Shown: positions 3,061 to 64,000 of the stretch, one piece after another
Numbering within the stretch: position 1 is the first letter of the stretch
Layout of the letters: each line of letters begins with the position of its first letter
From: Ophiura sarsii
Taxonomy: Eukaryota > Echinodermata > Ophiuroidea > Amphilepidida > Ophiuridae
Assembly: GCA_035610835.1 (NCBI GenBank)
Contig: CM069447.1
Span: forward strand, 77,327,982-77,391,981
Direction of reading: 5' to 3'
Length of the DNA: 64,000 nt
Translations under genes and position numbers: made by a program
The notes under the pieces: model-generated
The model's input: the letters and a program-made list of their open reading frames with translations, nothing else
Told to the model about the DNA's origin: nothing
The model's database searches: none

Positions 3061-3371
3061 AGTAACCTTATTAGGGTTAAATACTCAACTACTGGGCAAC
3101 GATATCATGTAAACAGATTAATCGAAGGTAAGGCAGGTAATTTATAATCAATAGTGATTTGCTGTGGACAGTGGTGATGGAATGAGTGAGATGTCGCTGG
3201 GCCTATAATCTTACACTCAATCCTGATCGACTGTCAGTCGGGTAGGGATTGCGGCCTCAGTGAATTGAGTGCAAGTTTATAGGCTTAGCGATGTCTTGTT
3301 CATTCGATCATTGCTGTCCACAGTGTCTATACGATTGCATGTTACGAGTGAGTATAAATTGTTTGCCTTAC

Positions 3372-3468
3372 CTTCAAATATACTGATAATATTGTCCCCA
3401 AAGCCCCACGAACTCAAGAGGGTCGTTATTTCATCGTCCGCCATATTGATAGTGCCGTCGTGTGCAAA
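3372..3468 (-). CDS. First coding exon of a SAM-like protein (downstream gene)
   Basis: An acceptor (TTTTGCAG) precedes 24 nt of presumed leader, then an ATG at 3,444 in good context (A at -3, G at +4; CAATATGGCGG). The coding part begins MADDEITTLLSSWGFGDNI and ends in phase 1 at a strong GTAAGG donor. The pattern of an acidic start, then LL..WG, then a short helix ending in IFE, resembles the N-terminal half of a SAM domain, a protein-interaction module. The exon lies about 600 bp downstream of the last Roc-COR exon on the same strand, so it may start the next gene. Later exons would lie at lower coordinates and were not found with confidence. The phases do not allow direct splicing from the COR exon. 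The SAM assignment rests on about 20 residues. Confidence 0.45.
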
Positions 3469-4081
3469 CTGCAAAATCCAGGCAAAATTGCATACTTACA
3501 GTGTAGAGTGAAGGGCAATCGTACAAGTGGAAGTTGTATCTTAGGAATAAACTTTTTAATCTATAAAGTGACACAACATCCATTTTGCGTAGCTCTAGTT
3601 AATTGGCTATATCTCAGGATTGACAAATCCGGATCAGATGAAATGAGCAGAATCTGAAATCCAGGTGTTTAGTCTTTCAATATGTGTAAATATCTTACAC
3701 CAAATGCTAGGACTTCATAGTCAACACGTTAGGTAAACACGTGCACCTTTTTAGGGACACCCTGTATAATAAAATGATTAGGCTCTCCAACAGTACAATA
3801 ACACTGCGTCTTGAATTATGTGCACCCAAACTACATGGACCTGCGAAATATATTGTACGATGTATCGGCGTTTAAATACTGCAACACTAATATTGAATAT
3901 CTTATTTAATTGTTCATCTCCAGAACTGAAGCGTGTATACGAATGTGATGATCAATAAAGTTGTCGCACGCATAGCACTTATTTTAACCTACCTCTGAAT
4001 TCGAATACAAAAGCACTTTAGAGGGTAAGTTCATATGAAAAAAAGACATAGCGCTAATTATAACCAAGTACAATAACCCAC
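3469..4081. other. Gap between the two minus-strand genes
   Basis: Holds an ACACCCTGTATAA repeat word near 3,760 and AT-rich sequence. If the COR exon is read through its donor it meets a stop at about 3,984, so this stretch could include an alternative end of the Roc-COR transcript. No terminal exon is certain. Confidence 0.4.
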
Positions 4082-4665
4082 CTGTTGTCCTATCTGTTGC
4101 TGTGATGCCTTCGACATTATCGACTGTATCAATACTTAGTGTCCTTGGATTTTTTAGCAAACCGTCTGTCTCTTTAGCCTTAGTCAAGTTTTCTTCACTG
4201 TAGTAATGGACGTTCTCTACCAAGTCTTTGGATTTCTTCAGATCATTTGGACTGAGGTAACCCACTTTGACATTGGTGCCAATCGATCGTTGAATTAGTT
4301 TTTTTTCGACTAATTTCTTCATTTCTTTCATCTCACCATATCCATGTCGTTCTGTTTCCTTTTGAACACGGACGGCCACGTGGATGGCACGTTTGTCTTT
4401 GGTGAGTTGGAGCATGCCTTCTGCTTTTCCCAACACTTTTAAAGCAAATCGCGATAAGATGGGTTTGACGTCTTCTATTCTGTAAAGATTCATACAGCTC
4501 ACTTGTAGACATGGGAATGTGTCGACTGAGAACATGTCAGTGATGTCTTGACATTCAATGCGGATGCCAAACACATTTGTGTGTCTCTCATCATTATCCC
4601 AGCTTATCTCTTCCACACCAGGTGGAAGCTTGGCAGGTATTATGAATGTTTTCTGGTCTGAATTT
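4082..4665 (-). CDS. Ankyrin-Roc-COR protein, exon 23: COR end and post-COR region
   Basis: Acceptor CTTACAG, then 1 nt completing the codon left by the 6,392 exon, 194 full codons and 1 nt before a GTGGGT donor. It starts with the end of the COR domain (IIPAKLPPG, matching the IP.LLP strand of COR) and continues into the long mixed region after COR, with GTNVKVGYLSPNDLKKS and YYSEENLTKAKET. This resembles the stretch after COR in DAPK1-like ROCO proteins (inference). In animals such proteins often end in a Death domain, but no such exon was found. If the donor is not used, the frame stops after about 30 more codons at 3,984. The sequence is intact, with no stops or frameshifts. Confidence 0.85.
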
Positions 4666-6391: not shown

Positions 6392-6618
6392 CTGAACGCT
6401 AGCTCAAAATATACTAACAGTTGAATCAGTACATCCGTATCAATGTGTTTAAAATGACGTCTCAAGTCTTCATCAGAATACTCTTGTTTCTGCTCTAATC
6501 CCTTGTAATCGGCTCTGAAGTTTCGATCTGCAAATATGGGTGCGAATATGCTAGTTGTCAACCAGTTTGGTTGAAGTATGATAATGTCATCATGATTCGC
6601 CTCCTTAGCATGATGTAC
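6392..6618 (-). CDS. Ankyrin-Roc-COR protein, exon 22: COR domain, middle
   Basis: AACCAG acceptor, 75 codons plus 2 nt, GTATGT donor. It carries the most recognisable COR segment: VHHAKEA, then DDIIILQPNWLTTSIFAPIF, which corresponds to the VILDPQWL..AF.P.. motif of COR domains, and then a helical part rich in charged residues (DEDLRRHFKHIDTDVLIQLL) ending LAFR. COR is the dimerisation and regulatory domain that always follows Roc in ROCO proteins. Phase 2 at its end fits phase 2 at the start of the 4,082 exon. No disruption is seen. Confidence 0.88.
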
Positions 6619-9574: not shown

Positions 9575-9754
9575 CTCTCCCGTATGATGCATATACCATA
9601 AGGCTGTCTTCAACAAATCATCGCTGGACAGTTTATCAATATCAGATCGGACCTTCTTCATGAAATCCGTTAAGTACATGATGGGATTCCCACGTCTACA
9701 CCACACTTGCTTCCGTTTGGTAATTTCGTCACAGATTTTTGGAATTTGTTCACC
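9575..9754 (-). CDS. Ankyrin-Roc-COR protein, exon 21: start of the COR domain
   Basis: TTCTTAG acceptor, exactly 60 codons, GTAGGT donor, phase 0 at both ends. The peptide opens GEQIPKICDEITKRK, contains NPIMYLTDFMKKV and ends DDLLKTALWYMHHTGE. This is the classic start of COR: a helix after IPK, then (I)..W.EF, and the (A)L.YLH..GE turn. It directly follows the last Roc exon in phase. No frame damage. Confidence 0.88.
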
Positions 9755-10425: not shown

Positions 10426-10586
10426 ACGTAGTGGTTGTGCAAGTTTGTCCAGCGTTTCTTGCAGTATCTTCAGATTATCTGATTGTGACCGGCGACTATC
10501 AACCACAACCACCTCATCGTGTATTGTCAAGTAGTCCTTAAACAGATCTTTGAAGTATTGGAGGTTATTCTCAGCTGTTTCCTTTG
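10426..10586 (-). CDS. Ankyrin-Roc-COR protein, exon 20: end of the Roc domain
   Basis: TTTACAG acceptor, 2 nt that complete a codon with the single nt left by the 12,190 exon, then 53 codons and a GTAAGT donor. The peptide runs KETAENNLQYFKDLFKDYL, then IHDEVVVVDSRRSQSDNLKI and LQETLDKLAQPLR. The VVVVDSR.S strand occupies the place of the G5 region of Roc (an [FV].[IV]S.k-like strand), followed by the last Roc helix. In phase with both neighbours. Confidence 0.85.
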
Positions 10587-12189: not shown

Positions 12190-12301
12190 AGTATTGAGGG
12201 TCATCACAACGATCAAGATGTGTACCGACCAAAAGGATGGTTTGTTGATGTCGCTCTGATGGGTTGTTCCCCGACTTGAGGAATTTCAGCCAATAGAGTA
12301 T
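12190..12301 (-). CDS. Ankyrin-Roc-COR protein, exon 19: Roc domain G4
   Basis: ATTACAG acceptor, 37 codons plus 1 nt, GTACGT donor. The peptide begins ILYWLKFLKSGNN and contains QTILLVGTHLDRCDD. The THLD motif is the Roc form of the G4 (NKxD/TKxD) guanine-recognition loop, here after the LLVGTH strand. A nearby alternative donor (GTAAGC at 12,180-12,185) would break the phase with the next exon, which is why the boundary is put at 12,190. Confidence 0.85.
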
Positions 12302-12506: not shown

Positions 12507-12746
12507 CTGTTCTCGTTGTTCGTCTTTGGAACAATCAAACACAATGGCAACTATTCCTCTGCTGGCTCCCAGAAACATCGCATGTGTTACACGGAACTCT
12601 ATCTGTCCCGCAGTGTCCCAAATCATGAAGGAACCGCCATGTTTCACATTTTTTTCCTTGACCTTTATTCCGGGCGTTGGAGGTTGCTTGTCACTTGATT
12701 TGAACCTTCCCATAACCAGCTCCGATAGCACGTACCCGCGGAAGTC
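12507..12746 (-). CDS. Ankyrin-Roc-COR protein, exon 18: Roc switch regions and G3
   Basis: ATTACACAG acceptor, exactly 80 codons, GTATTT donor, phase 0 at both ends. It begins DFRGYVLSELVMGRF. PPTPGIKVKEKNV is the switch I / G2 part (TxGI as in other Roc domains). SFMIWDTAGQIEFRVTHAMF contains the G3 DTAGQ loop, and IVAIVFDCSKDEQREQ is the following beta strand and helix. The Ras-like catalytic Gln after DTAG is present (DTAGQ), which not all Roc domains keep. No frame damage. Confidence 0.92.
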
Positions 12747-14930: not shown

Positions 14931-15047
14931 CCTTGATAAGGAGTTTTTCAACGTTGTCTTTCCAGCAGACGGGTCACCAACGAGAAATAACTTCACTGTA
15001 TTAACAGGACGCCCTCCACTCTCCATCAACAACTTGAACTTAGCATC
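14931..15047 (-). CDS. Ankyrin-Roc-COR protein, exon 17: Roc P-loop
   Basis: TTTTAAAG acceptor, exactly 39 codons, GTAATA donor, phase 0 at both ends. The peptide starts DAKFKLLMESGGRP and continues VNTVKLFLVGDPSAGKTTL. GDPSAGKT is a complete Walker A / G1 motif on the first Roc beta strand, with Lys and Thr in place for phosphate and Mg binding. The stretch ahead of it is the short linker usual between ankyrin or LRR repeats and Roc. In phase with the 16,233 linker exon and the 12,507 exon. Confidence 0.93.
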
Positions 15048-25059: not shown

Positions 25060-25065
25060 TAATAA

Positions 25066-25437
25066 TAATAACGCTAATGATAACCATAAGGGGAAAAATT
25101 ACATGAGATTAACTAACAATAACATTCATTTACATAAATTAATTAATTATGCTAATTTATTCAAATATTCACAAAATTTGCATAATTTGTACGACGGGCT
25201 GTCTTTAGTCACTGTTAGACTGTCGTACAAATTATGCACATTTATTGAATATTTGAATAAATTTGCATAATTAATTAGCTCATGAATAGTAATTTACTTT
25301 GTTATTTATAACGGAATAAAGCGCATTATTGTTTATGAAAGAAATTACGTTAGGGGGAAACAGTATTTTCGACCTAACGTAATAATGAATGAATAACAAA
25401 AACCTCTTTCCCCCTAACGTACCTTTAAAGGTAATAA
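25066..25437. mobile_element. Foldback MITE, tandem copy 1 (period 372 bp)
   Basis: Contains an inverted repeat: ATTCAAATATTCACAAAATT and GCATAATTTGTACGAC on one side, GTCGTACAAATTATGC and ATTGAATATTTGAAT on the other. A smaller outer pair is built on ACGTTAGGGGGAAA and TTTCCCCCTAACGT. The whole unit is repeated directly downstream. Confidence 0.85.
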
Positions 25438-25815
25438 TAATAACGCTAATGATAACCATAAGGGGAATAAGTACATGAGATTAACTAACAATAACATTCA
25501 TTTACATAAATTAATTAATTATGCTAATGTATTCAAATATTCACAAAATTTGCATAATTTGTACGACGGGCTGTCTTTAGTCACTGTTAGAGACAGCCCG
25601 TCGTACAAATTATGCAAATTTATTGAATATTTGAATAAATTTGCATACTTAATTAGCTCATGAATAGTAATTTACTTTGTTATTTATAACGGAATAAAGC
25701 GCATTATTGTTTATTAAAGAAATTACGTTTAGGGGAAACATTATTTTCGCCCTAACGTAATAATGAATGAATAACAAAAACCTCTGTCCCCCTAAGGTAC
25801 CTTTAAAGGTAATAA
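25438..25815. mobile_element. Foldback MITE, tandem copy 2
   Basis: Second copy of the 372-bp unit, slightly diverged. It keeps the longer stem (GACAGCCCGTCGTAC is present on both arms, where copy 1 has lost part of it). Each unit ends ACCTTTAAAGGT, itself a palindrome. Confidence 0.85.
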
Positions 25816-25967
25816 CACTAATACTAATAATAATAACCATGCGAATCATGGGCTTTCAATAATAATGATTCAACATCCATTATGCACGACCTATTAAGAA
25901 AACTACTCGTATATCCCCTTATTACAATTATTAGAACATTATAATATTGAAATTTGGTTCGTCTTAC

Positions 25968-26069
25968 CAGGTTTGTTTTACTAACATCCACTTTGGCTTC
26001 AATGATCAGAAATGTACAGATATCTAAGTGACGATTAACAGCAGCTACATGAAGAGGTGTGTTTCCGTC
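25968..26069 (-). CDS. Ankyrin-Roc-COR protein, exon 15: ankyrin repeat
   Basis: TATTCAG acceptor, 34 codons, GTAAGA donor, phase 0 at both ends. DGNTPLHVAAVNRHLDICTF followed by LIIEAKVDVSKTNL is an ankyrin repeat with the canonical TPLH..A start. It differs clearly from the twelve array repeats (TPLH instead of TPLW, no DGNADVN), so it is an older unit outside the recent expansion. Confidence 0.9.
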
Positions 26070-26174: not shown

Positions 26175-26213
26175 ACTCTAACCCTAACTCTAACCCTAAC
26201 CCTAACCCTAACC
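26175..26213. repeat. Interstitial telomere-like (CCCTAA)n
   Basis: About six copies of CTAACC(C) with small variants, in one orientation, in an intron. Confidence 0.85.
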
Positions 26214-29985: not shown

Positions 29986-30241
29986 GTAATGCAGTGAATG
30001 GTGAATAGACTTAATTTTCCCAGATAAAACTACTTTAAAATTCAAGTAACATGACCTCGAGAGAAGAAGTTCACCACATAACAAAACTACACCACAAAGA
30101 CAAGCGTATGCAATTTCAGTAGGCTCAGCAAAGAAAGTCAACAATGAATGGACAACCCAGAAGGGCACTGGTGCAAATCAAGTAATACAAATATACATTA
30201 CTGGAATGCAGAAAGTTTAAGGCATTAAAACCAGATCACAG

Positions 30242-30784
30242 TTGTGTCAAGACAAAGGCAGGTGTTTTGCCTGTTTGAAACCAGGGCACATGTGCATGAA
30301 ATGCAGGAAAAAGAACAAATGTGCAACCGGTAGCAGGAAGCACCCCACAGCAATGCATGACCATAACCAGGAACGTCAACCAGACACCAATGATGAAGTG
30401 ACGCCCATCACGGTAAATACCGGTTGCGTAAGTGTAGAGTATAAGCCTACAAATATGACAATTCTACCAGTGACAGTTATATCAATAGGAGGTTCGTGTG
30501 TCAAAACTTACGCCTTTCTTGACAGCGGGTGTGGAGCGGTATTTGCTTCACCAGAGCTCTATGCAAAACTCCATGTGAGAATGAAGAACACCAAGTTAAT
30601 ACTGAAGACGCTTGCTGATGAACAGATGTGTGAAACAAAAGTGGTGCGAGATCAGCTGCAAGTCGGTGATGTTCAAGGTCTTGCCTTTGTAGATCTTCCA
30701 GATGTGTTTGTAAAGAATATTCCAGTCACAAATGAAGATATTCCCAAGCAGAAAGATAATTATAGACACGTGGGTGCATCTTAA
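30242..30784 (+). pseudogene. BEL/Pao Gag zinc knuckle and aspartic protease
   Basis: CFACLKPGHMCMKC is a CX2CX4HX4C zinc knuckle. About 80 residues later, YAFLDSGCGAVFASPEL holds the catalytic DSG of a retroviral-type aspartic protease, with the flexible loop region around KTLADEQMCETKVV. The frame is open for 180 codons, but upstream Gag is broken and stops occur just after it (IGSNVPAASQP and onward), before the inserted transposon. Confidence 0.85.
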
Positions 30785-31012
30785 GGATATATGGAGACAT
30801 ACACTGTGTAATTCCTACCGTGAGCTTGATGATTGGAAGTAATGTGCCAGCGGCATCTCAACCATTGGAAGATACACTGGAAGGATAGGAGAGCCATATG
30901 CAGTTAAGTCACCTCTGGGTTGGATGATCCATGGTAACAGGGGGTACCCAGAAGTCTGTTGCAGCTCATTTTTGTAATGTGAGAAACACAACCAGCATAC
31001 AGCATGCACATA

Positions 31013-31852
31013 GGGGAGATGCGGGAGAGTTGAGCCACCGGGAGAGTTGAACCACCCCCTATAACTCAAAAAGTAGTAACTTACTAAAATTTATATTGGC
31101 ATATATTGTTATATAGCATCAATACGACATTCTTAGTGTTAAACTCTACTGTCATGTGTGCTCAGTATCAAAGATACCTAAACAAAATCATTTTTTTCAC
31201 TTTTGAGTGAAAAATAGAAGAATTTTTTTTTTTTTTTTTTTTTCCCATAGCAAGACTTAGAATATAATAGCGGTAATTTGTTTATTGAAGGGGGTATGTA
31301 TGACCATTATTTTAGAGAACTATTGTAAACTATTAAAAGTTCTACACCAGACAGGATTGGGTTATTTACAAAATGGTCACAATGAGGAGAGTTGAGCCAT
31401 TGGTCATGGGGAGAGTTGAGCATAGGGAAAACATGTAGTAACATTTTGATTTTTGGACTAAAGGTAAAAAATGTATAATAAATGAGAGAGAATGTTATTT
31501 TGTGCCATGATAATAACAATTGAGCACCATATTTACTTTAAGGATTAATAAATCAAAAGTTGAAAAAATATGATTTTGTTTTTTTCACCAGCATTGACTT
31601 ATCATGCTGGCTCAACTCTCCTGTAATGGTGGCTCAACTCTCCCATACTGTAGGGAGAGTTGAGCCACTTTACCAATTTTTTTCAAACCTTTTGTATGAA
31701 TAAGCCTTAACTGCTATCCCAACTGTTATTGTTTCACAACGAAAACAACACTCTAAAGTTTATCTTACACTAATTGTTTACAGGTTTGTACTTTTCTTCC
31801 GCATATGGTGACACAAAAAATAAAAAATGGCTCAACTCTCCCGCATCTCCCC
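31013..31852. mobile_element. TA-flanked DNA transposon inside the BEL element
   Basis: Perfect 25-bp terminal inverted repeats start GGGGAGATGCGGGAGAGTTG, and TA lies directly outside each end (31,011-31,012 and 31,853-31,854). The interior repeats GAGAGTTGAGCCA words (31,020, 31,388, 31,655) and has a T-run, with no transposase. This is a non-autonomous element that used a TA target, as Tc1/mariner-type elements do. Confidence 0.88.
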
Positions 31853-31879
31853 TACATGTAGTGATGATCATCTAGGTCT

Positions 31880-33330
31880 TTGGCACCGTGTCTTCACCCA
31901 GCTGCACGAACTATGTGCTCCGACAGATTGGTAACAAATTGTGACAACATAAAACCCAGAGTGACAGAAGCCATTTTGAATTCATTTTATGTGGATGACA
32001 TGTTGAAATCATTTGCCACTGAACAAGAAGCCATAGAAGTATCAAAGAGTATTCAAGAAACCCTACAAGAAGGATTTAGAGGCTTTAGACTTACAAAGTG
32101 GTCCCAGCAGAAGAAAGGGCTAAAGAAGTCAAGCAACTTGATTTAGATGTGGAAACCCTACCTACAGACAGAGCACTCGGAATTCAGTGGGATGCAGAAA
32201 CAGATCAACTGGGATTCTCCTACAGCATGAGTGAAAAATGGAACGTAGTCACAAGAAGAAGTCTACTCTTTATTATCAGTAGTGTATATGATCCCTTGGA
32301 CATGGTAGCTCCCTTTGTCATTAAGGCCAAGATGATTCTGCAAGATCTTTGCCCAAACAAGATAGGTTGGGATGATGAGACCCCACAACAACACGCCCAT
32401 GAATTGAAGCAATGGACTAAAGTGCTTCCAAAGCTAAAAGAAGTGAAGCTGAAGCCATGCCTGAAGCCAGTCTCATTTCACCACCCAACAAAGATAGAAC
32501 TACACCATTTCGCAGACGCAAGTGAAAAGGGATATGGAACAGTGAGCTATGGCAGATATCAGGAGGGAACCAAAATACACTGTTCTTTCATGGCAGCAAA
32601 GGCCAGGGTCAAATCCTTGAAAAAGATTACCGTACCCCGATTGGAATTGACCGCCGCCGTCACTGCAGTAAGAATGGACTCCAAACTGAAAAGTGAGTGG
32701 AGAATGGGCGATGATGAACTGATTTGCAGTAGTCATTTTTATAGTCTTACGGTGTCGAAATATATAGTAAATGAATCTTCACGTTTTCACACTTTAGTCG
32801 CAAACCGGGTAGAAGAAATACGAGAGACAACAGAGCCGTTACGGTGGCACTATGTACCCACAAAAGACAACCCAGCTGATGATTGTTCCCATGGACTTAC
32901 AATGGAGAAGCTACTGAAGAGTGATAGATGGTTTCAAGGTCCACATTTCTTATGGAAAGAAGAAAGTGATTAGCCCAAATGCCAGGTAACAAGTCCGGAA
33001 AGCCTGTCAACAGAAGATCCAGAAGTAAGGAAAACAGGAGCCTTTGGCCATGCATCACCTGTGAATGTTGGAGTTGGAGTGGTGAAGTGTGTTGAATTAC
33101 AAGACCCTGTGGCCAGAATTGTCAGCTACTTTTCTGATTGGATGAAGCTGAAAAGGATAATAGCGTGGTGGCTCCGCTTAAAAGGAATCCTCTGGCATAG
33201 GTCCAAGAATCAAGAAACCAGACAACAAACCAAAATAACAGTGGAAGAAATACAACATGCTGAAGAAGCCATTATAAAGATAGTCCAACACAAGGCTTGT
33301 CCAGCAGAAATATCAGCCCTACAGAAGTAG
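31880..33330 (+). pseudogene. BEL/Pao RT end, RNase H and integrase start
   Basis: ILNSFYVDDMLKSFATEQEA carries the RT motif C (YVDD). A frameshift near 32,098 is followed by DRALGIQWDAETDQLGFSYS, ISSVYDPLDMVAPF and LHHFADASEKGYGTVSY (first Asp of RNase H in FADAS), then VPRLELTAAVTAVRMD and YVPTKDNPADDCSHGL. After a stop, VARIVSYFSDWMKLKRIIAW and TVEEIQHAEEAIIKIVQ are the N-terminal integrase region. A segment is missing within RNase H (between the MGDDELI and SKYIVNESS parts). Confidence 0.88.
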
Positions 33331-43639: not shown

Positions 43640-45190
43640 ACTCAATTGCTTGGGTCATTACCGTATCACTTGCGGTCATTAAACGATCACCTGGGGTGAT
43701 AAAATGATCGCACATGGTCATTTCACGCTCATTTTGAGGCATTAAATAGTCACTTGAGGATCATTACACTTGGGGTAATTTGAATGATCTCTAGGGTTAT
43801 CAAGTGACTATTCGTGTCATGAATGATTGGGGTCACCACGCTATCAGTAAAGGTCATTAAATGATCACTTGGGGGAAATGAAACGGTCCTTCAAGATTGC
43901 TTAGGGTCATTAAACAGTCACTTTGTGTCAATGGTCATTTTGGATTATTACATTGTCACTTGGATCTAGTCAATAAATAGTCACTTAGGGTCACTTATTA
44001 ATCCCCTCGATTACTAGATGATGGCTTGGGTCATTAAATGATGAGCTAGGGGTCATTAAAATATCACTTGAGGTCATGTTATGATCACTCAGGGTCATTA
44101 AACAATCACTTTGATTAATTAAATTGTCATTTTGGGTCATCGAATAATCCCTGGTGGCTACTAAGTGACCGATCGGGTCATTAAATGATTGCTCGGGATC
44201 ATTAAGCTATCACTTGGGGCCATTACATGATCACCTGAGGTAATAAAATGATCAATCTTGGTCAATAGATGATAACACAGGGTCAATAGATGATTTATCG
44301 GGGTCATTAAACAATCACTTTGAGTCCTTAGATGGGCATTTAATGACCACAAGTGATAGCGTAATGACCAGAATCAATCATTTAATGGCCGGATCGGTCG
44401 CTTAAATAATCCCAAGGGATCTTTCAATGACCCGAAATAACCATTTAATGACTCAAAGTGATTGTTTAATGACCCCGAGCAATCATTTATCGAACCTGAT
44501 TGATCATTTTAATGACCCTGTGTGATCATTTATTGACCCTGATTGATCATTTTTATTACCCCAGGTGATCATTTAGGGACCCCAGGTGATCATTTAAGGA
44601 CCCCAGGTGGTCAAATAAGGACCCCAAGTGATAGCATAATGACCCGATCGGTCATGTAATAACCCCAGGTGATTCTCAGATGACCCGAACTAACCGTTTA
44701 ATGACTCAAATTGATCATTTAATGACCCTGAGTGATCATAACATGACCTCAAGTGATATTTTAATGCCCCTCCCCCCCCCCCCAGCTCATCATTTAATGA
44801 CCTAAGCCGTCATCTAGTAATCGGAGGGGATTATATGGTGACCCCAGGTGACTATTTGTTGACTAGATCCAAGTGACAATGTAATAATCCAAAATGACCA
44901 TTGACACAAAGTGATTGTTTAATGACCCTAAGCAATCTTGAAGGACCGTTTTATTAACCCAAGTGATCAATTAATGACCCTAAGTGATAGCGTGGTGACC
45001 ACAATCAATCATGACACGACCGGTCACTTGATAACCCTAGGGATCATTCAATAACTCCAAGTGCAATGATCCCCAAGTGACCATTTAATGACTCAAAGTG
45101 ATCGTGTAATGACCCTGTGTGATCATTTCATCACCCATACGTGATCGTTTAATGACCGCAAGTGATACGGTAATGACCCAGGCAATTAAG
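43640..45190. repeat. Minisatellite of GGTCATTAAATGATCACTTG units, inverted at the centre
   Basis: Roughly 60-70 degenerate units of about 20-24 bp. Left of about 44,333 the units read GGTCATTAAATGATCACTTG. Right of it they read as the complement, AAGTGATCATTTAATGACCC. This forms the inner part and apex of the foldback element. Confidence 0.92.
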
Positions 45191-46757
45191 TAAGTAAAGG
45201 ACATTATGATAATATAATCGAGTAATAAGGTCATGGATACATTGATACAGCTACTTATGTATAATTGGTGTCGATCGTAATTGTTTGGTGATCCTTTTTG
45301 ATATTTCTACTACTAAGGTTTTCAACTTCCCTAATTATCCCCATAAAATCAATAATCTATCTGTTAAGACAGTTAGATACTGGTAATTAGCTAAACATAT
45401 AACTTGATGAGGTTTATTTAGGAGAGTGATAAGCAATTAAAACTGTTAAAGATGTGGGTTGTATATCTAAAAGCATAAGTATATCACTAGAACATTATTA
45501 CTATTAGTTGGTGTATGTAATGCAATACACGCTGTTATAGAATATTTCACATTAAGGCGGCCATTGTGGCCGACATCTTTGATTTGAAATAATTATGTTG
45601 AAAAAGCAAACGTGCTGGATATGAGTTTCTAGTAGTCTAATATATATCATATACATCCTATATACCATCATCATATGTTGGCTGATCAGTTTATGAGATT
45701 TGATCATTTTTGGCGGCCATTTTGGATGCCATCTTGAATAGCCCTTTAAAACACCGAAATGAATGTTGTTAACACCCTGAATATGTTTGAGGACCATAGA
45801 AGTAGTTCAAAAAAGTTGGTTTAGGGAGTCCTGGGGTGCATGGAAGACCCCGCCTTAGATACGCCTAATTTCCCATTAGTTATTCTATACACTCATGTTA
45901 AATAACCCTTGAATGCCCCTTTAATGTTAAATTTTACCCTATTTGTCATCATAAAAATATCTATAAATGTCACAGACCATGCAATGTCATGTCATACTAG
46001 TTTGTTGATTTAATCAAGCATCATGTGATAGATTAATTAACTAGCGAATATAAGTGGCAAATAAAACTATAAAACTGAGAAAAGTGCCCTTTTGTACTCC
46101 CATGTGCCTTTATTTTTTTTATATTTGAGCAGCTTTAGGCACGAATTATTCCATAAATATACATCAAATGACGTCGAACTGATTATTGGTGGATAGTATA
46201 TTGTTCAAAGATAAAATTTACACAGAAAACGCAAACATAGTTTTTGCCCAAAAATTGTCTTTTTATGCTGAAAACGGCCCAAAAATCGATTTCTATTTTT
46301 GTCACCCCCCCCCCCTTCATTTGAAAGGTAACTATTTTAGGACTTGAATTAGCGTGGGTGTCAAGCTGTAACAAAAAATACCGTGATACATTATTTTAAA
46401 GCACATTTATTGCCTTTGGCTGGTCTACTGGTAATGCAAACCTCTTTCTATAGGTTGATTGTCACTTTTGAAACTGGACCCCGACCATTGAAATGACAAT
46501 AACTCCGCTGCGCAACATCGTGTCTCATCGATCGAGGTGTCAAAATACGCAGAACAAAATGATGCACTTGGTTATTTGCTTCGATTAATGCATACCTTTT
46601 CGAGTCGTTATATATTGGATCATTTTTAAGTGTTTCGATACTTTTTGTGAGCAGTTTAGGTTTCCCTATTTTTTTGTACGATTAGTTATCTCTAAAAAAC
46701 AAAATAGGTTTGGGTATTTCAAATTAAAATAGTCATATTTTGTTATAATTTACTTAC

Positions 46758-46859
46758 TTTGTCTGCTATGTTGACATCTGCATTGCCATCAGTAATCAGT
46801 ATTTTGCACACTTCAGTACGACCTATACTAGACGCTTGCCATAGAGGAGTATACCCATC
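46758..46859 (-). CDS. Ankyrin exon 14 (array unit 1)
   Basis: 34 codons between CATTCCAG and GTAAGT, phase 0. DGYTPLWQASSIGRTEVCKI then LITDGNADVNIADK: an ankyrin repeat with TPLW instead of TPLH and one extra residue (TDGNADVN), hence 34 rather than 33 residues. Last array unit in transcript order. Confidence 0.92.
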
Positions 46860-46982
46860 CTGGAATGTAACAGACAGACAATGTAGTTGTTGTACAATTA
46901 TTTATCTCTAAAATCAAAATATATTTGGGTATTTCAAATTAAAATAGTCATATTTGAGGTGGTTTTGTTATGATTTACTTAC

Positions 46983-47084
46983 TTCGTCTGCTGTGTTGAC
47001 ATCTGCATTGCCATCAGTAATCAGTACTTTGCACACTTCAGTATGACCGTTACTAGACGCTTTCCATAGAGGAGTACGCCCATA
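46983..47084 (-). CDS. Ankyrin exon 13 (array unit 2)
   Basis: Same exon form, phase 0. YGRTPLWKASSNGHTEVCKV then LITDGNADVNTADE. Carries Asn at the helix-turn position, where most units have Ile. Confidence 0.92.
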
Positions 47085-47207
47085 CTGGAATGTAACATAC
47101 AGACAATGTAGTTAGCGTACAATTAGTTATCTCTAACAACATTATAGGTTTGGGTATTTCAAATTAAAATAGTCATATTCTAGGTGGTTTTGTTATGATT
47201 TACTTAC

Positions 47208-47309
47208 TGTGTCTGCTTGGTTAACATCTGCATTGCCATCAGTAATCAGTACTTTGCACACTTCAGTATGACCTATACTAGACGCTGCCCACAGAGGAGT
47301 ATTCCCAGG
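47208..47309 (-). CDS. Ankyrin exon 12 (array unit 3)
   Basis: Same exon form, with acceptor CATTCTAG. PGNTPLWAASSIGHTEVCKV then LITDGNADVNQADT. The only unit starting PGN and with TPLWAA. It has no counterpart in the second block, so it is the most distinct array member. Confidence 0.92.
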
Positions 47310-47432
47310 CTAGAATGTAACATACGGACAATGTAGTTAGCGTACAATTAGTTATCTCTAAAAACATTATAGGTGTGGGTATTTCAAATTAAAATAGTCA
47401 TATTCTAGGTGGTTTTGTTATGATTTACTTAC

Positions 47433-47534
47433 TTTGTCTGCTTTGTTAACATCTGCATTGCCATCAGTAATCAGTACTTTGCACACTTCAGTATGACCGT
47501 TACTAGACGCTTGCCATAGAGGAGTACGCACATA
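47433..47534 (-). CDS. Ankyrin exon 11 (array unit 4)
   Basis: YVRTPLWQASSNGHTEVCKV then LITDGNADVNKADK. Val replaces the usual Gly at position 2. Partner of unit 9 at an offset of 1,126 bp. Confidence 0.92.
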
Positions 47535-47657
47535 CTGGAATGTAACATACAGACAATGTAGTTAGCGTACAATTAGTTATCTCTAACAACATTATAGGTT
47601 TGGGTATTTCAAATTAAAATAGTCATATTCTAGGTGGTTTTGTTATGATTTACTTAC

Positions 47658-47759
47658 TGTGTCTGCTTGGTTAACATCAGCATTGCCATCAGTAATCAGT
47701 ACTTGGCAAACTTCAGTATGACCTATACTAGACGCTTTCCATAGAGGAGTACGCCCATA
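47658..47759 (-). CDS. Ankyrin exon 10 (array unit 5)
   Basis: YGRTPLWKASSIGHTEVCQV then LITDGNADVNQADT. Partner of unit 10 at 48,784, with the same protein sequence. Confidence 0.92.
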
Positions 47760-47883
47760 CTGGAATGTAACATACAGACAATGTAGTTAGCGTACAATTA
47801 GTTATCTCTAACAACATTATAGGTTTGGGTATTTCAAATTTAAAATAGTCATATTCTAGGTGGTTTTGTTATGATTTACTTAC

Positions 47884-47985
47884 TTCGTCTGCTTTGTTAA
47901 CATCTGCATTTCCATCAGTAATCAGTACTTTGCACACTTCAGTATGACCTATACTAGACGCTTGCAATAGAGGAGTACGCCCATA
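47884..47985 (-). CDS. Ankyrin exon 9 (array unit 6)
   Basis: YGRTPLLQASSIGHTEVCKV then LITDGNADVNKADE. TPLL replaces TPLW. Partner of unit 11. Confidence 0.92.
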
Positions 47986-48108
47986 CTGGAATGTAACATA
48001 CAGACAATGTAGTTAGCGTACAATTAGTTATCTCTAACAACATTATAGGTTTGGGTATTTCAAATTAAACTAGTCATATTTTAGGTGGTTTTGTTATGAT
48101 TTACTTAC

Positions 48109-48210
48109 TTCGTCTGCTTTGTTAACATCTGCATTTCCATCAGTAATCAGTACTTTGCACACTTCAGTATGACCTATACTAGACGTTTTACATAGAGGAG
48201 TACGCCCATA
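48109..48210 (-). CDS. Ankyrin exon 8 (array unit 7)
   Basis: YGRTPLCKTSSIGHTEVCKV then LITDGNADVNKADE. TPLCKT is the most divergent helix-1 version in the array. Partner of unit 12. Confidence 0.92.
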
Positions 48211-48333
48211 CTGGCATGTAACATACAGACAATGTAGTTAGCGTACAATTAGTTATCTCTAACAACATTATAGGTTTGGGTATTTCAAATTAAACTAGTC
48301 ATATTTTAGGTGGTTTTGTTATGATTTACTTAC

Positions 48334-48435
48334 TTCGTCTGCTTTGTTAACATCTGCATTGCCATCAGTAACCAGTACTTTGCACACTTCAGTACGACCT
48401 ATACTAGACGCTTGCCATAGAGGAGTATACCCATC
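48334..48435 (-). CDS. Ankyrin exon 7 (array unit 8)
   Basis: DGYTPLWQASSIGRTEVCKV then LVTDGNADVNKADE. Starts DGY like unit 1, of which it is a copy. Confidence 0.92.
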
Positions 48436-48558
48436 CTGGAATGTAACAGACAGACAATGTAGTTGTTGTACAATTATTTATCTCTAAAATCAAAATATAT
48501 TTGGGTATTTCAAATTAAAATAGTCATATTTGAGGTGGTTTTGTTATGATTTACTTAC

Positions 48559-48660
48559 TTCGTCTGCTTTGTTGACATCTGCATTGCCATCAGTAATCAG
48601 TACTTTGCACACTTCAGTATGACCGTTACTAGACGCTTGCCATAGAGGAGTACGCCCATA
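48559..48660 (-). CDS. Ankyrin exon 6 (array unit 9)
   Basis: YGRTPLWQASSNGHTEVCKV then LITDGNADVNKADE. Asn at the turn as in units 2 and 4. The intron on its left side matches the one beside unit 2. Confidence 0.92.
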
Positions 48661-48783
48661 CTGGAATGTAACATACAGACAATGTAGTTAGCGTACAATT
48701 AGTTATCTCTAACAACATTATAGGTTTGGGTATTTCAAATTAAAATAGTCATATTCTAGGTGGTTTTGTTATGATTTACTTAC

Positions 48784-48885
48784 TGTGTCTGCTTGGTTAA
48801 CATCAGCATTGCCATCAGTAATCAGTACTTGGCACACTTCAGTATGACCTATACTAGACGCTTTCCATAGAGGAGTACGCCCATA
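48784..48885 (-). CDS. Ankyrin exon 5 (array unit 10)
   Basis: YGRTPLWKASSIGHTEVCQV then LITDGNADVNQADT; same protein sequence as unit 5. Confidence 0.92.
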
Positions 48886-49009
48886 CTGGAATGTAACATA
48901 CAGACAATGTAGTTAGCGTACAATTAGTTATCTCTAACAACATTATAGGTTTGGGTATTTCAAATTTAAAATAGTCATATTCTAGGTGGTTTTGTTATGA
49001 TTTACTTAC

Positions 49010-49111
49010 TTCGTCTGCTTTGTTAACATCTGCATTTCCATCAGTAATCAGTACTTTGCACACTTCAGTATGACCTATACTAGACGCTTGCAATAGAGGA
49101 GTACGCCCATA
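49010..49111 (-). CDS. Ankyrin exon 4 (array unit 11)
   Basis: YGRTPLLQASSIGHTEVCKV then LITDGNADVNKADE; identical protein to unit 6. Confidence 0.92.
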
Positions 49112-49234
49112 CTGGAATGTAACATACAGACAATGTAGTTAGCGTACAATTAGTTATCTCTAACAACATTATAGGTTTGGGTATTTCAAATTAAACTAGT
49201 CATATTTTAGGTGGTTTTGTTATGATTTACTTAC

Positions 49235-49336
49235 TTCGTCTGCTTTGTTAACATCTGCATTTCCATCAGTAATCAGTACTTTGCACACTTCAGTATGACC
49301 TATACTAGACGTTTTACATAGAGGAGTACGCCCATA
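49235..49336 (-). CDS. Ankyrin exon 3 or 2 (array unit 12)
   Basis: YGRTPLCKTSSIGHTEVCKV then LITDGNADVNKADE; identical protein to unit 7. This is the first array exon in transcript order. The unit's upstream intron is cut at 49,426, so further units could be missing between it and the 55,846 exon. Confidence 0.92.
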
Positions 49337-49426
49337 CTGGCATGTAACATACAGACAATGTAGTTAGCGTACAATTAGTTATCTCTAACAACATTATAGG
49401 TTTGGGTATTTCAAATTAAACTAGTC

Positions 49427-49543
49427 GAGCAAACAACTTTACTAAATCGTCTTGCCTCTAGAAGTGTTATTAGTGCTGCTGGATTTCTCAGCAGCATTCG
49501 ATACCATCGATCAAACAACTTTACTAAATCGTCTTGCCTCTCG
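49427..49543 (+). repeat. 82-bp offset direct duplication at the LINE 5' end
   Basis: CAAACAACTTTACTAAATCG plus TCTTGCCTCT occurs at 49,430 and again at 49,512. The first copy is out of place in the RT reading frame and marks a junction artefact at the truncated 5' end. Confidence 0.88.
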
Positions 49544-50621
49544 TTGTGGTATCACTGGAACAGCTAGTGAGTGGATTAAGTCTTACATGACTGATCGAAC
49601 GCAATCCGTCTGTATCAAAAATGTTCAATCTGACAGCGTCCCTTTACTCTGCGGTGTTTCTCAGGGATCCGTTGGAGGGCCTCTTTTGTTCATACTTTAT
49701 AGTGCCCCTATTCAGAACATCATAAACTCACATATGGCATCAACAGTGTTAGTTATGCCGATTACACACAACTATATCTTACATTTGAGCCTGAAGAATG
49801 TGATGTAGCGCAAAAGAAGATGTAAGCTTGCATCTCTGATATCAGATCGTGGTGTTCATCGAACAATTTGGTTCTAAATGACAAGAAGACAGAACTCGTG
49901 CATTTCTCGTCACAGTTCAAAAAGTCTACTCTAAAACCTACCTTGGCTATCGGTGACTCGTTTATTTCTACATCTCCGCATGCCCGAAACCTCGGTGTGA
50001 TCATGGATTCATCATTGGGCATGAGCAAACATGTGAACAGTGTTTGCAAATCTGCCTTATTTGCAATTGGAAGAATCGGACAAATTCGACAGTATTTAGA
50101 CATAAAAACCACTACAAGATTAATTCATGCCTTTGTGACGTCTAGACTCGATTCGAACAATGCTATGTTGTTTGGTTTACCGAAATGTGAGTTGGCGAAG
50201 ATTCAACGAGTGCAAAATACCGCCGCCCGTCTTATTTTATTTGTGCCAAGGCGTGAAAATATAACTCCGTTTCTTTCAATTGAGTGCAGAGCACTATATA
50301 AAATCTTGCTCCTCACGTACAAGGCTTTAAATGACATGGCACCCGTGTTTATCAGTGATCTTGTCAGCCAGTATGTTCCAACGCCGCGGTCCTTAAACTC
50401 TTCTAATAAAAACTTGCTTGAAGTTTTTCGTCCGTCAACAACGTTCTACGGTGCTAGATCTTTCATTGTGGCAGCGGCAACCGAGTGGAATCGTCGCCCG
50501 AGTGAAGTTCGTCATGCCGAAACTGTTTCAGTCTTCAAATCGCATCTTAAAACGCACCTTTTCGGACTTACTATACTGGTTAATCTGATATATTTGTTAT
50601 TATTTGCACAATTTTATCAGT

Positions 50622-51263
50622 CCAGGCAAATTACCAAATCTGGAAATCGGGATTGATTTCCAAATCTGGAAATGTAGTGATCAACTTATTTTGCAGGTAG
50701 TTATTTTTGTGAATCACCAAATTGCTTTAATTTTGTGGATACTTAATTTTTGCGAATCGAAACCAAACAAATATAACATTATTAATACACTGCCATTTTT
50801 GTAGGTTAATATTTTCGCGAATTTGAGCACTAGCTATTTTTGCGAAATTAAATTGTTCACGAAATTGACAGTTTTCTGCACTGGGACGACCTTATTTTAA
50901 GTTTGGATCAACTATTTTTTGGTAAATCATGCGTAAAAGATAATTACCTAAATTATCACCGTGGTGTTTTAATTTTGATCGTGGCATTTTAAAAATAAAG
51001 GAATTAATTGATTAATTAACTAATTTAATTAAGCATTAATTAGTGGATTAATGGTCATCGGGTATTTATTTTTGCTTTTTTACTATTTGGTAGGTATGTC
51101 TAATTAACTTTTGAATTTAAAAAGTATAAATAATTGCTGAAATCTATGTTTTAATCAAGTTTGTAGTTTTCGAATCTGATCACAAAGTGCACAGCATTTG
51201 GTTTCCAGGTCAGGCAATCGATTTCCAGATATAGCACATTTCCAGATTTGGTCATTTGCCTGG
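50622..51263. mobile_element. MITE in the LINE 3' UTR
   Basis: Starts CCAGGCAAATTACCAAATCT, and ends with the complement of CCAGGCAAATGACCAAATCT (one mismatch in 26 bp). Subterminal TTTCCAAATCTGGAAAT and CGATTTCCAGATATAG words add to the fold. AT-rich interior with TTTTTGCGAA words, no open frame. Confidence 0.85.
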
Positions 51264-51364
51264 CCTGTTTATGTGTGCTTATACTTGTTGATGTATATTG
51301 TTTTTGGTTTTTTATGCTATGTTAAGCGCTTAGTGACTTCTGTTTTAAGCGCTTAATAAATGTA

Positions 51365-51421
<57 letters not shown>

Positions 51422-55845: not shown

Positions 55846-55924
55846 TTTTTTGCAACTGTTTACAATATCATGAATACTTTCGGCATCATTTCTCACGACA
55901 GCTTGTCGAAGCTCTTCGTATAAT
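55846..55924 (-). CDS. Ankyrin-Roc-COR protein, N-terminal exon
   Basis: CATACAG acceptor, 1 nt completing a phase-2 codon, 26 codons, GTAAGT donor in phase 0, as the ankyrin exons need. LYEELRQAVVRNDAESIHDI then VNSCKK reads like the first helix pair that opens many ankyrin proteins (LY.A...GD...V..LL). An earlier exon must supply at least two nucleotides and the start codon. A donor at 56,018-56,023 (GTAAGT) leaves a possible short upstream exon, but no in-frame ATG was found. Confidence 0.75.
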
Positions 55925-57161: not shown

Positions 57162-57519
57162 AGGTATATTTGTTGATCTTTTCCGGGGGACGCCCTCAAT
57201 CCTCGAAGACATATTTTAATAAAGATTGACATGTCTGGTCTTAAATCATGAATATATTTCAAGTTACAGAGCGATACAATTCCTAATTACCTCAAAATCA
57301 TGGTTTTAGAGTGAATTTAGAGTAAAAATAAGTTGTTGACGCAGACTCCGACAGTTTATTTTCACTCTAAAACCATGATTTAGAAGTCATTAAGAATCGT
57401 ATCGCCCTGTAACTTGGAATGTATGTATGATTTATGACCAGAAATGTAAATCTGCAAGAAAATCTGCTTTATTTTCGAGGATTGAGAGGGTTCCCTGGAA
57501 AAAATCACATACTATACCT
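57162..57519. mobile_element. TTAA-type palindromic MITE (piggyBac-like), copy 2
   Basis: Same family as 16,949-17,319: starts AGGTATATTTGTTGATC, ends GATT.TATAGTATGTG in complement, and has the centre ACTCTAAAACCATGATTT. Left flank TTAA (57,158-57,161). The right flank reads TCAA, one substitution from TTAA. Confidence 0.88.
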
Positions 57520-62326: not shown

Positions 62327-62898
62327 TTATCTATTCATTTATATTAGTGTTCGATCAACATATCCATGACCGATTTGTAATCGAAGTATATTATTAAGAA
62401 TACATAAGGCTACGATCTACGATCTAAGCAGTATACATGTTAAGAGTTATATACTTAATAATATCAAAGCTGTGTACTTAATTCTGCATTTAAACTTACA
62501 CCCACAGGTGAGCTCAGCACACTGCGACATCGAGGTGTGAAGTCCGTGTTTCCACAAGTACACCGTTTCGTGTCAAGATCAGATGTAGGTATCACTCTAA
62601 CGTAGTGATATCTGGTAAGTTGCTATACATTTCACATTTTGTATTGACATTGTGTATTTACAGCCGATACTATTGTTCTTGTGTACCATGTATATCTCGT
62701 CACAATAAACCTCATGATTACATCAGTGAGATAAGTCCAATTAAATCAAGTTAATAATCTGCTCAAATTAATTGGTTTAATTGATTCAATCAATGTGATT
62801 AATACTAATAGTCTTGGAATATCACCAATTATATTTAGTATATCCGTGATCTGTCTAAATTCTTAGTTTTGAATTAATCCATTTAGTCAACAATAAAC
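62327..62898 (+). other. Leader of the Ty3-type element
   Basis: Non-coding stretch between primer-binding site and gag. It holds CACCCACAGGTGAGCTC (about 62,500), a possible splice donor, and the small hairpin ATCACTCTAACGTAGTGAT (about 62,591). Confidence 0.5.
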
Positions 62899-64000
62899 AT
62901 GGCTAGTCAGATGGAATTAGAGAAACTTATCGCTATAGGAGAATCCCTAGAACTTAAAGGAGATAAACTACGCGAGTTTATTGATGAAGAACGCGATAGA
63001 CTAAAAACAGAGCGAGATGAAGAAAGAGCAAATAGGGCAAAAGAAAGGGCCTTAGAAAGGGAGGAACAAGATAGAATAAGGGATATAGAACGGGAGGAAC
63101 AAGATAGAATAAGGCAGGAACAAGATAGAATAAAACAGATAGAAAGGGATGATCTAGAGAAACAACTAGCAATACAGGTTGACATTGAAAAGGGTAAAGC
63201 TATGCAGCTAGAAATTCAACTTCAAATTGAACGTGCTAGACAAGCTCAGGTTGAAGCAGGTGGTGGTGTTGGTGGTAATCATAACAATGGTCATTATAAA
63301 AGTAGGGCTCCCAAACTACCCGCTTTTAATCAAGACAAAGATGATATTGACGCCTACCTTCATAGATTCGAAAGATATGCCACATCTCAAGGGTGGAATA
63401 GAAACAATGAATGGGCAACAAATCTTGGTGCATTGTTACAAGGGATGCTTTGTTCGAATACTCTTCTCTTTCCCCGCAAGAAGCATCAGATTACGATAGG
63501 GTAAAAGAAGCTGTCTTAACTGCTTATAATCTCACTGCTGAAGGGTTTAGGCATAAATTCAGAGATGTTAGGCCAGGGAGAATCAGGTTCTAGATGTGTT
63601 ACTAGATTAAACAACTACCTTCATAGATGGATGGAACTAGAAAATACTGGTGACTTTGAATCAATGCAAGATTTACTACTTAGGGAGCAATTTATGAATT
63701 GTTGTACTAAAGACCATGCTACTTTCCTGAAAGAAAGAAAGCCTTCCAACATCAAGGAGATGGCCCTATATGCTGATCAGTATGTTGAAGCTCATGGCGG
63801 TTGGCAGCCTGGACAAAACAAACAGGAAAAGGTAAAAGTAACAGTACAGGTAATCAAAGAACAAACTCATTCAGAAATTCAAACCCTCAAAAAGGTAAAG
63901 GTACTAGTAACAATAACAAGTCAGGTTCCTACAGTCAGAAACAACAATCTGGTGGTACAAATTCAGAAAAGGGTCAGTTCAAATGTTTTTTATGTCAGAA
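62899..64000 (+). pseudogene. Ty3-type gag, SCAN-like capsid, frameshifted, cut by the window end
   Basis: Starts MASQMELEKLIAIGESLELK. Residues 30-115 form a highly charged coiled coil with EEQDRIR repeats. The capsid begins APKLPAFNQDKDDIDAYLHR (about residue 137). Frame changes near 63,440 and 63,585 lead to SPQEASDYDRVKEAVLTAYN, then LLLREQFMNCCTKDHATFLK and ALYADQYVEAH, the helix pattern of the SCAN domain. Another frame change near 63,815 precedes a Ser/Asn/Gln-rich linker and FKCFLC, the first half of a zinc knuckle. The vertebrate SCAN domain is known to descend from the capsid of Gmr1-like Ty3 elements. Pol would lie beyond the window. Confidence 0.85.

Follow-up and report, generated by a model that had tools for sequence, protein, structure and literature searches.

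ROCO proteins are best known for LRRK2 in Parkinson disease and for DAPK1 in cell death. In DAPK1 the ankyrin repeats are followed by Roc-COR, the same order as in the gene described here, and those repeats are not known to be near-identical. Near-identical repeats occur in fungal NLR-like proteins, where, according to passages of PMC4986451, some of the ankyrin, TPR and WD repeats are more than 85% alike and vary in number between isolates; sites under selection lie on the concave face, and those of ankyrin repeats fall, with one exception, in the inner helices and hairpin/loop. The same passages put the metazoan repeats that are so conserved at 0.8% (PMC4986451). Here we describe a stretch of 64,000 nucleotides from the ophiuroid Ophiura sarsii (assembly GCA_035610835.1, contig CM069447.1, positions 77,327,982 to 77,391,981; hereafter the window), in which a tandem array of 12 complete 102-bp ankyrin exons separated by 11 introns of 123-124 bp occupies 46758..49336 on the minus strand. 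To judge by its sequence, this array is the predicted sensor part of a larger ankyrin-Roc-COR gene of the ROCO, DAPK1-like kind. We think it probable that the array is the ligand-binding part of this animal gene and that it has been diversified by turnover of exon-intron cassettes together with amino-acid changes on one face of the repeat.

The ankyrin array and its ankyrin-Roc-COR gene

Tandem Repeats Finder (TRF) reported a repeat with a period of 225 at 46676-49426 (12.3 copies, 93% matches, score 4677). All 12 complete ankyrin exons within it are on the minus strand, from ANK1 (49235-49336) to ANK12 (46758-46859), and each is 102 bp long, open and in phase 0-0, with an AG acceptor before it and the donor GTAAGTAA after it, so that the donor of all 12 reads GTAAGT. 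The consensus unit YGRTPLWQASSIGHTEVCKVLITDGNADVNKADE is a 34-residue ankyrin repeat, and four of the units have matches among the designed ankyrin repeat proteins of the PDB. A first-pass annotation of the same DNA had described each 225-bp unit as a 102-bp phase 0-0 exon plus a 123-bp intron; this holds for the exon in 12 of 12 cases, while the intron has 123 bp in 9 of 11 cases and 124 bp in the other two. Its corollary, that gain or loss of whole units keeps the protein in frame, is borne out by the length and phase of every exon. The intron following ANK12 opens with array-like sequence (46676..46757, minus strand) that then diverges and, compared with the other introns, has a short deletion, and the remaining 3' part of the intron preceding ANK1 (49337..49426, minus strand) is of the array type up to its abrupt end at a retroelement junction.

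A search for the intron start motif that tolerated up to 3 mismatches found 12 occurrences in the window, all within the array, and none in 100 shuffles, and because of these counts and the TRF result the array is real, beyond what chance would produce. No further units of its type were found elsewhere in the window, including past the retroelement. A plain satellite is ruled out, since the frame and the splice sites are kept in all 12 units. The whole window gave no Rfam match at gathering scores, and two single ankyrin exons submitted to NCBIfam met one model only, far under its cutoff. Tandem repeats of 21/43 bp, degenerate and built on TGACCC and TGATCA, are found at 44442-44770 and 45061-45180, 1.5-2 kb off the low-coordinate end of the array.

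The array contains a recent multi-unit duplication (47449..49426, minus strand), detected as a self-match at a lag of 1126 bp, or five units. It is taken to be recent because the 852-bp block at 47449-48300 differs from that at 48575-49426 by 2 mismatches; 591 bp are exactly identical at this lag, and the identical run stops at the retroelement junction. Among the exons, ANK1 is identical to ANK6 and ANK2 to ANK7, and a single silent base separates ANK3 from ANK8. A second intron type is represented by introns 4 and 11, which do not differ from each other and have at least 13 differences from the rest; exon 9 resembles exons 4 and 11 yet is followed by an intron of the common type, and this mixing points to exchange at a scale smaller than the unit.

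The 12 translated units, 408 residues in all, have a mean pairwise identity of 0.849 (0.837 among the 9 distinct proteins) and of 0.907 to their consensus, to be set beside the level of more than 85% over at least 100 residues used for such repeats, and identity rises to 0.87-0.88 in the best runs of 4, 6 or 9 units, both sets of values having been computed with a program other than that of PMC4986451. When whole repeat sets were compared, with the diverged 13th ankyrin exon described below left out, the array topped the 129 of 137 returned ankyrin proteins compared, the next reaching 0.762. We replace this ranking with one at equal run length and claim first rank for runs of 9 and 12 units, relative to a non-random sample of proteins whose unit borders were placed mechanically: the best run of 12 units scored 0.849 against 0.809 for the next of 112 proteins, and the best run of 9 units 0.869 against 0.831 (121 proteins).

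The rest of the gene lies at lower coordinates on the same strand. The 13th ankyrin exon (25968..26069, minus strand), again of 102 bp and phase 0-0, is supported by Pfam Ank (E 1.1e-7 for the enclosing open stretch) and aligns in tblastn with several repeats of the Amphiura filiformis proteins P0003 and P0009, the last repeat before Roc included. It is followed by seven minus-strand exons, namely Roc exon 1 with the P-loop GDPSAGKT (14931..15047; Pfam and tblastn), Roc exon 2 (12507..12746; Pfam Roc E 1.3e-9 for the enclosing open stretch, and tblastn), Roc exon 3 (12190..12301), Roc/COR exon 4 (10426..10586) and COR exon 5 (9575..9754), these three placed by tblastn, COR exon 6 (6392..6618; tblastn, with COR-A under the cutoff when the exon is taken alone and just over it in the spliced model), and COR exon 7 with a C-terminal extension (4082..4665). 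The last of these is the final exon found in the window and is 45-50% identical to four Amphiura proteins, the ones among five compared that reach this part. Joined together, the 20 exons (12 in the array, the 13th ankyrin exon and 7 of Roc-COR) give 982 codons with 0 stops; they lie on one strand and in order, their acceptors end in AG, their donors begin with GT and their phases agree, the boundaries outside the array having been picked by eye to suit frame and splice sites. A tentative N-terminal capping exon with a GTAAGT donor in phase 0 (55846..55917, minus strand) was placed by eye, without homology support.

The spliced model submitted to Pfam held 6 of the 12 array units and the tentative N-terminal cap, and in it Ank_2 (1e-59), Roc and COR-A exceeded their cutoffs. 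The Roc GTPase domain, including its P-loop, matched PF08477 with an E value of 6.8e-14, and directly behind it lies COR (PF16095, 36.1 bits against a cutoff of 35.3), collinear with the COR of Amphiura, so that both domains by which a ROCO protein is recognised are present. A protein search with the Roc-COR half, in which the 7994 candidates with the most shared words were scored, returned 18 matches (best E 9.0e-161), some of which carry the name DAPK1-like; 11 are from Amphiura filiformis, ten at 43-53% identity and the eleventh at 34%, and the others are five from Branchiostoma (28-30%) and one each from the coral Montipora and the oyster Saccostrea (26% each). In tblastn with P0002, P0003, P0004, P0006 and P0009, Roc-COR was collinear over the exons of the window, P0009 ending before the last exon. 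The C-terminal domains of the relatives differ, with DUF4559 in P0003, Death in P0004 and CARD in P0011. The N-terminal pieces of two relatives and the C-terminal pieces of four had no convincing counterpart in the window (best E 0.32); that value was also the best for the C-terminal piece of P0004 with its Death domain, and the 3' end of the gene may lie outside the window. The DUF4559 domain of P0003 was likewise not found in the window. A recognition protein would fit with this placement of the array, in an ankyrin-Roc-COR gene that has relatives with Death, CARD or DUF4559 domains.

A SAM-like piece at 3280-3495 on the minus strand was considered as the C-terminus of the gene and dropped, its phase being wrong by reading and a Pfam match lacking. 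The open stretch there, which contains MADDEITTLLSSWGF and is SAM-like by eye, is possibly the start of another gene or element.

Changes on the presumed binding face

Amino-acid changes among the units concentrate in the beta-hairpin and helix 1. These concave positions of the ankyrin repeat we take to be its usual binding face. The assignment agrees with passages of PMC4986451. The exon has 25 variable sites out of 102, 20 of them replacement and 5 silent, and the hairpin and helix 1 (codons 31-34 and 1-14) hold 17 replacement sites and 1 silent site against 3 and 4 in the rest (Fisher p 0.012). The variable positions listed in the first-pass annotation (W/L/C and Q/K/A in helix 1, I/N at the turn) reappear in the unit alignment, together with codons 1, 3, 31 and 34 among others. 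A codon model fitted by maximum likelihood to the 10 distinct exons gave an omega (ratio of replacement to silent change) of 2.49 on the face and 0.30 elsewhere, and two classes were preferred to one with twice the log-likelihood difference (2dlnL) at 19.8; that omega on the face lies above 1 is only weakly supported (2dlnL 4.48, p 0.034). Nine further tree runs, on an unweighted pair-group tree (UPGMA) and eight bootstrap neighbour-joining trees, some apparently of identical topology, gave values of 1.9-2.6 for the face and a 2dlnL of 19.8-23.5 for the split, with the same direction in 9 of 9. When the 18-codon block is rotated round the repeat, its structural position ranks 2 of 34, and the block at rank 1 is nearly its complement. 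In a comparison of the variability of face and back, the array gave p 0.005.

The introns had been described at first as being as conserved as the exons, which understates the case, since for most unit pairs they are the more conserved of the two. The exons of a unit pair have diverged more than the downstream introns in 37 of the 55 pairs and less in 16, with 2 ties; set against the upstream introns, they have diverged more in 41 pairs and less in 13, with 1 tie. If introns of the type found in units 4 and 11 are left out, replacement sites are variable more often than intron sites (20/77 against 7/123, p 7.6e-5). Silent exon sites show no significant excess over all introns (p 0.56).

Several observations weigh against a binding surface diversified in this way. 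The division into face and back is a structural one, yet it was picked after the data had been seen, and four of the seven splits tried had a Fisher p above 0.1, the highest being 0.62. The test of whether omega exceeds 1 is weak, with a 2dlnL of 2.4-4.8 over the 10 tree runs, two of them under the 5% mark of 3.84, and the trees themselves are approximate because the units recombine. Contrasting silent with replacement differences, a check put forward in the first-pass annotation, yields an excess on the face (17:1 against 3:4, omega 2.49) and no significant one overall, omega over all codons being 1.38 and not different from 1. Four relatives, with 11, 6, 10 and 4 units used, all vary more on the face than on the back, though not significantly (p 0.18-0.35), and the result for the array itself comes from one array in one assembly. 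Mean divergence over the 55 pairs is 0.079 at replacement sites, 0.070 at silent sites and 0.047 in introns; measured against all 11 introns the replacement sites show no significant excess (20/77 against 19/123, p 0.098), and silent exon sites too exceed the common introns (5/25 against 7/123, p 0.032), so that part of the excess of exons over introns is not due to amino-acid selection. The stronger evidence is thus the contrast within the repeat and not the comparison of exon with intron. As to internal identity, the mean falls to 0.771 if the diverged 13th exon is counted, and in shorter runs the array is second for 6 units (0.875, 125 proteins) and third for 4 units (0.882, 129 proteins), the proteins ahead of it being the fungal P0079 (Fusarium) and P0083 (Pyrenophora). 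Finally, the Pfam scan of the spliced model found no kinase, NACHT, Death or CARD domain in the exons at hand.

A rival explanation is ordinary concerted evolution, in which unequal crossing-over acts on the units, structural positions are constrained and the rest drifts, in a scaffold or regulator without a role in diversity. An overall omega not different from 1 agrees with such a process, as do silent sites that are about as variable as replacement sites (5/25 against 20/77) and also above the common introns, and similarly uniform repeat stretches in other ankyrin proteins. What speaks against it is that replacement sites pile up on one face, that all 10 tree runs put omega on this face at about 1.9 to 2.6, and that introns are more alike than exons for most unit pairs, and we regard it as rather unlikely. 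That the number or order of the units is an assembly artefact, through a collapsed or expanded tandem repeat or merged haplotypes, is brought to mind by the 591 bp repeated exactly at the 1126-bp lag and by passages of PMC12222747 according to which fungal repeats of such kind are unreliable in short-read assemblies. The exons, however, differ from one another except for the pairs ANK1/ANK6 and ANK2/ANK7, every unit is in phase with its splice sites intact, and a wrong count would leave the array itself standing, and we judge an artefact improbable.

Neighbouring features and remaining alternatives

The upstream intron of the array is joined to a LINE-like reverse transcriptase fragment at 49427..50653 on the plus strand, antisense to the gene, which looks 5'-truncated (RVT_1 E 9.3e-9 for 49446-49805, and homologues of 49826-50653). 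The latter part had 463 matches, and among the 120 of these listed the 4 that carry an organism name are all from Amphiura filiformis, at 47-58% identity. About 33 bases at the 5' end of the fragment recur about 80 bases on, and a long TTA/TAT run follows at 51363-51421. Lying in the intron before ANK1, the element may or may not be harmful to the gene. If it removed or cut off the 5' part at the array, the gene would be dying and its exons would survive only through the recency of the decay; the end of the upstream intron at the reverse transcriptase fragment and the failure to find the N-terminal sequence of two Amphiura relatives in the window are compatible with this. Yet the 20 exons are free of stops, frameshifts and broken splice sites, omega is 0.3 on the structural half of the repeats, introns commonly harbour retroelements and many N-termini are poorly conserved, and decay is accordingly given little probability. 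Still less probable is that the array serves alternative splicing, with many isoforms of one gene made by skipping exons in frame, for although 12 of 12 exons are symmetric and their splice sites near-identical, tandem ankyrin repeats normally all join one solenoid.

Other features of the window were noted in passing. Six copies of CTAACC (26178-26213, 93% matches in TRF), the animal telomere hexamer, lie in the large intron of the gene, some 110 bp upstream from the 13th ankyrin exon, and open frames resembling a BEL/Pao-type retroelement (30221-33327, plus strand) lie within the 20.7-kb intron between ANK12 and that exon, with Pfam Peptidase_A17 at E 8.5e-40 for 32089-32970. A 378-bp tandem duplication (25060-25833, 2.1 copies, 94%) adjoins the 13th ankyrin exon, and near-identical translated fragments about 980 bases apart are present at 23.8-25.1 kb. 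At 62887-63999 on the plus strand there are two long open frames, the first rich in charged residues and without a Pfam match, that by eye suggest a gag-type retroelement protein. An inverted repeat at 57210-57466 has 106-nt arms that are 83% complementary and 45 nt apart.

Proposed mechanism and comparison with known systems

In the explanation we favour, that of a ligand-binding array diversified by cassette turnover and changes on its face, each repeat of the solenoid is one symmetric exon plus a short intron, and unequal recombination between near-identical 225-bp units or blocks would lengthen or shorten the solenoid with the frame intact; recombination is the probable cause of the turnover. 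Such turnover would keep units and introns alike, while changes in the concave hairpin and helix 1 would be retained, presumably by selection, and the binding surface thereby diversified. The near-identical introns would offer a landing zone for recombination that spares the coding sequence, allowing reshuffling without damage to the frame. By analogy with the relatives, a bound ligand would act as a switch on the Roc GTPase and on an effector domain at the C-terminus, one that was not found in the window.

The idea raised at first, of an architecture suited to rapid change of a binding surface, gains from the in-frame units, the recent duplication, the changes on the face and the Roc-COR context, and its immune or self-recognition side stays an analogy. 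A recognition role is a good hypothesis; more specifically, and tentatively, we propose that the product may be an intracellular recognition protein that changes fast, works in a way comparable to fungal NLR sensors, and probably serves immunity or self-recognition. That it corresponds in animals to the self/non-self repeat receptors of fungi, with repeat number and binding face differing between individuals through exon-intron cassettes, appears possible but doubtful. If true, animals lacking adaptive immunity could quickly alter an intracellular recognition surface within one gene by moving cassettes, and ROCO proteins would become candidate diversifying receptors. Near-identical ankyrin exon arrays in animal ROCO genes are not mentioned in titles or abstract openings among the literature matches listed, a scope that leaves subscription journals mostly outside. 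Neighbouring literature deals with ROCO domains combined with TIR in Aplysia (PMC9334734) and with TRADD-N expansions (PMC8195603).

PRDM9, a different protein with a different role, also combines repeat turnover with contact residues, in DNA-binding fingers that are contained in one exon. Its zinc-finger array, like the ankyrin array, is a fast-evolving coding minisatellite (PMC8925151). In a comparison with DAPK1, the exons of the window yielded no kinase and no Death domain; the spliced model shows no N-terminal kinase, and the 5' end of the gene may lie beyond the 20 exons at hand.

The same domain order is found in the Amphiura filiformis proteins P0003 and P0009, which have 34-residue units of equal type (about 11 and about 5, respectively), a diverged last repeat, and 48% identity over Roc-COR, covering 98% and 63% of the query part. 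Their units are nevertheless less alike than those of the array, at 0.52 and 0.53 overall and 0.56 and 0.66 in the best four-unit run, with three inner units of P0009 reaching 0.77. The Branchiostoma proteins P0011, with its CARD, and P0013 likewise have repeats of high internal identity (0.75 when all units are counted, which places them second and third among 129 proteins), although their units have 33 residues and another sequence, their Roc-COR is 29-30% identical, and their best six-unit runs (0.77 and 0.75) are below the top fungal ones. Because the Branchiostoma repeats are also rather uniform, a tendency toward uniform repeats may be wider in the ankyrin-Roc-COR family.

With the ANK, WD40 and TPR repeats of high internal conservation (HIC) in fungi, such as those of Podospora HNWD and Pa_3_8560, the array shares several traits: a nucleotide-binding signalling protein contains tandem repeats that are nearly identical, the variable sites lie in the inner helix and hairpin of the concave face, and there are signs of recent turnover, so far as these are described in passages of PMC4986451 and PMC12222747. 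Unlike the fungal HIC NLRs, the window gene is an animal gene with a Roc-COR GTPase instead of NACHT/NB-ARC, neither of which was found in the Pfam scan of the spliced model; its repeats precede the GTPase, and each repeat has its own exon, with the intron as part of the unit. We do not class it as a fungal-type HIC NLR, because the GTPase, the order of the parts and the exon-per-repeat layout differ, and the likeness is one of working principle only, not of membership. If the proposed mechanism is true, the shuffling of its cassettes would parallel the way in which fungi handle the repeats of their NLR-like receptors.

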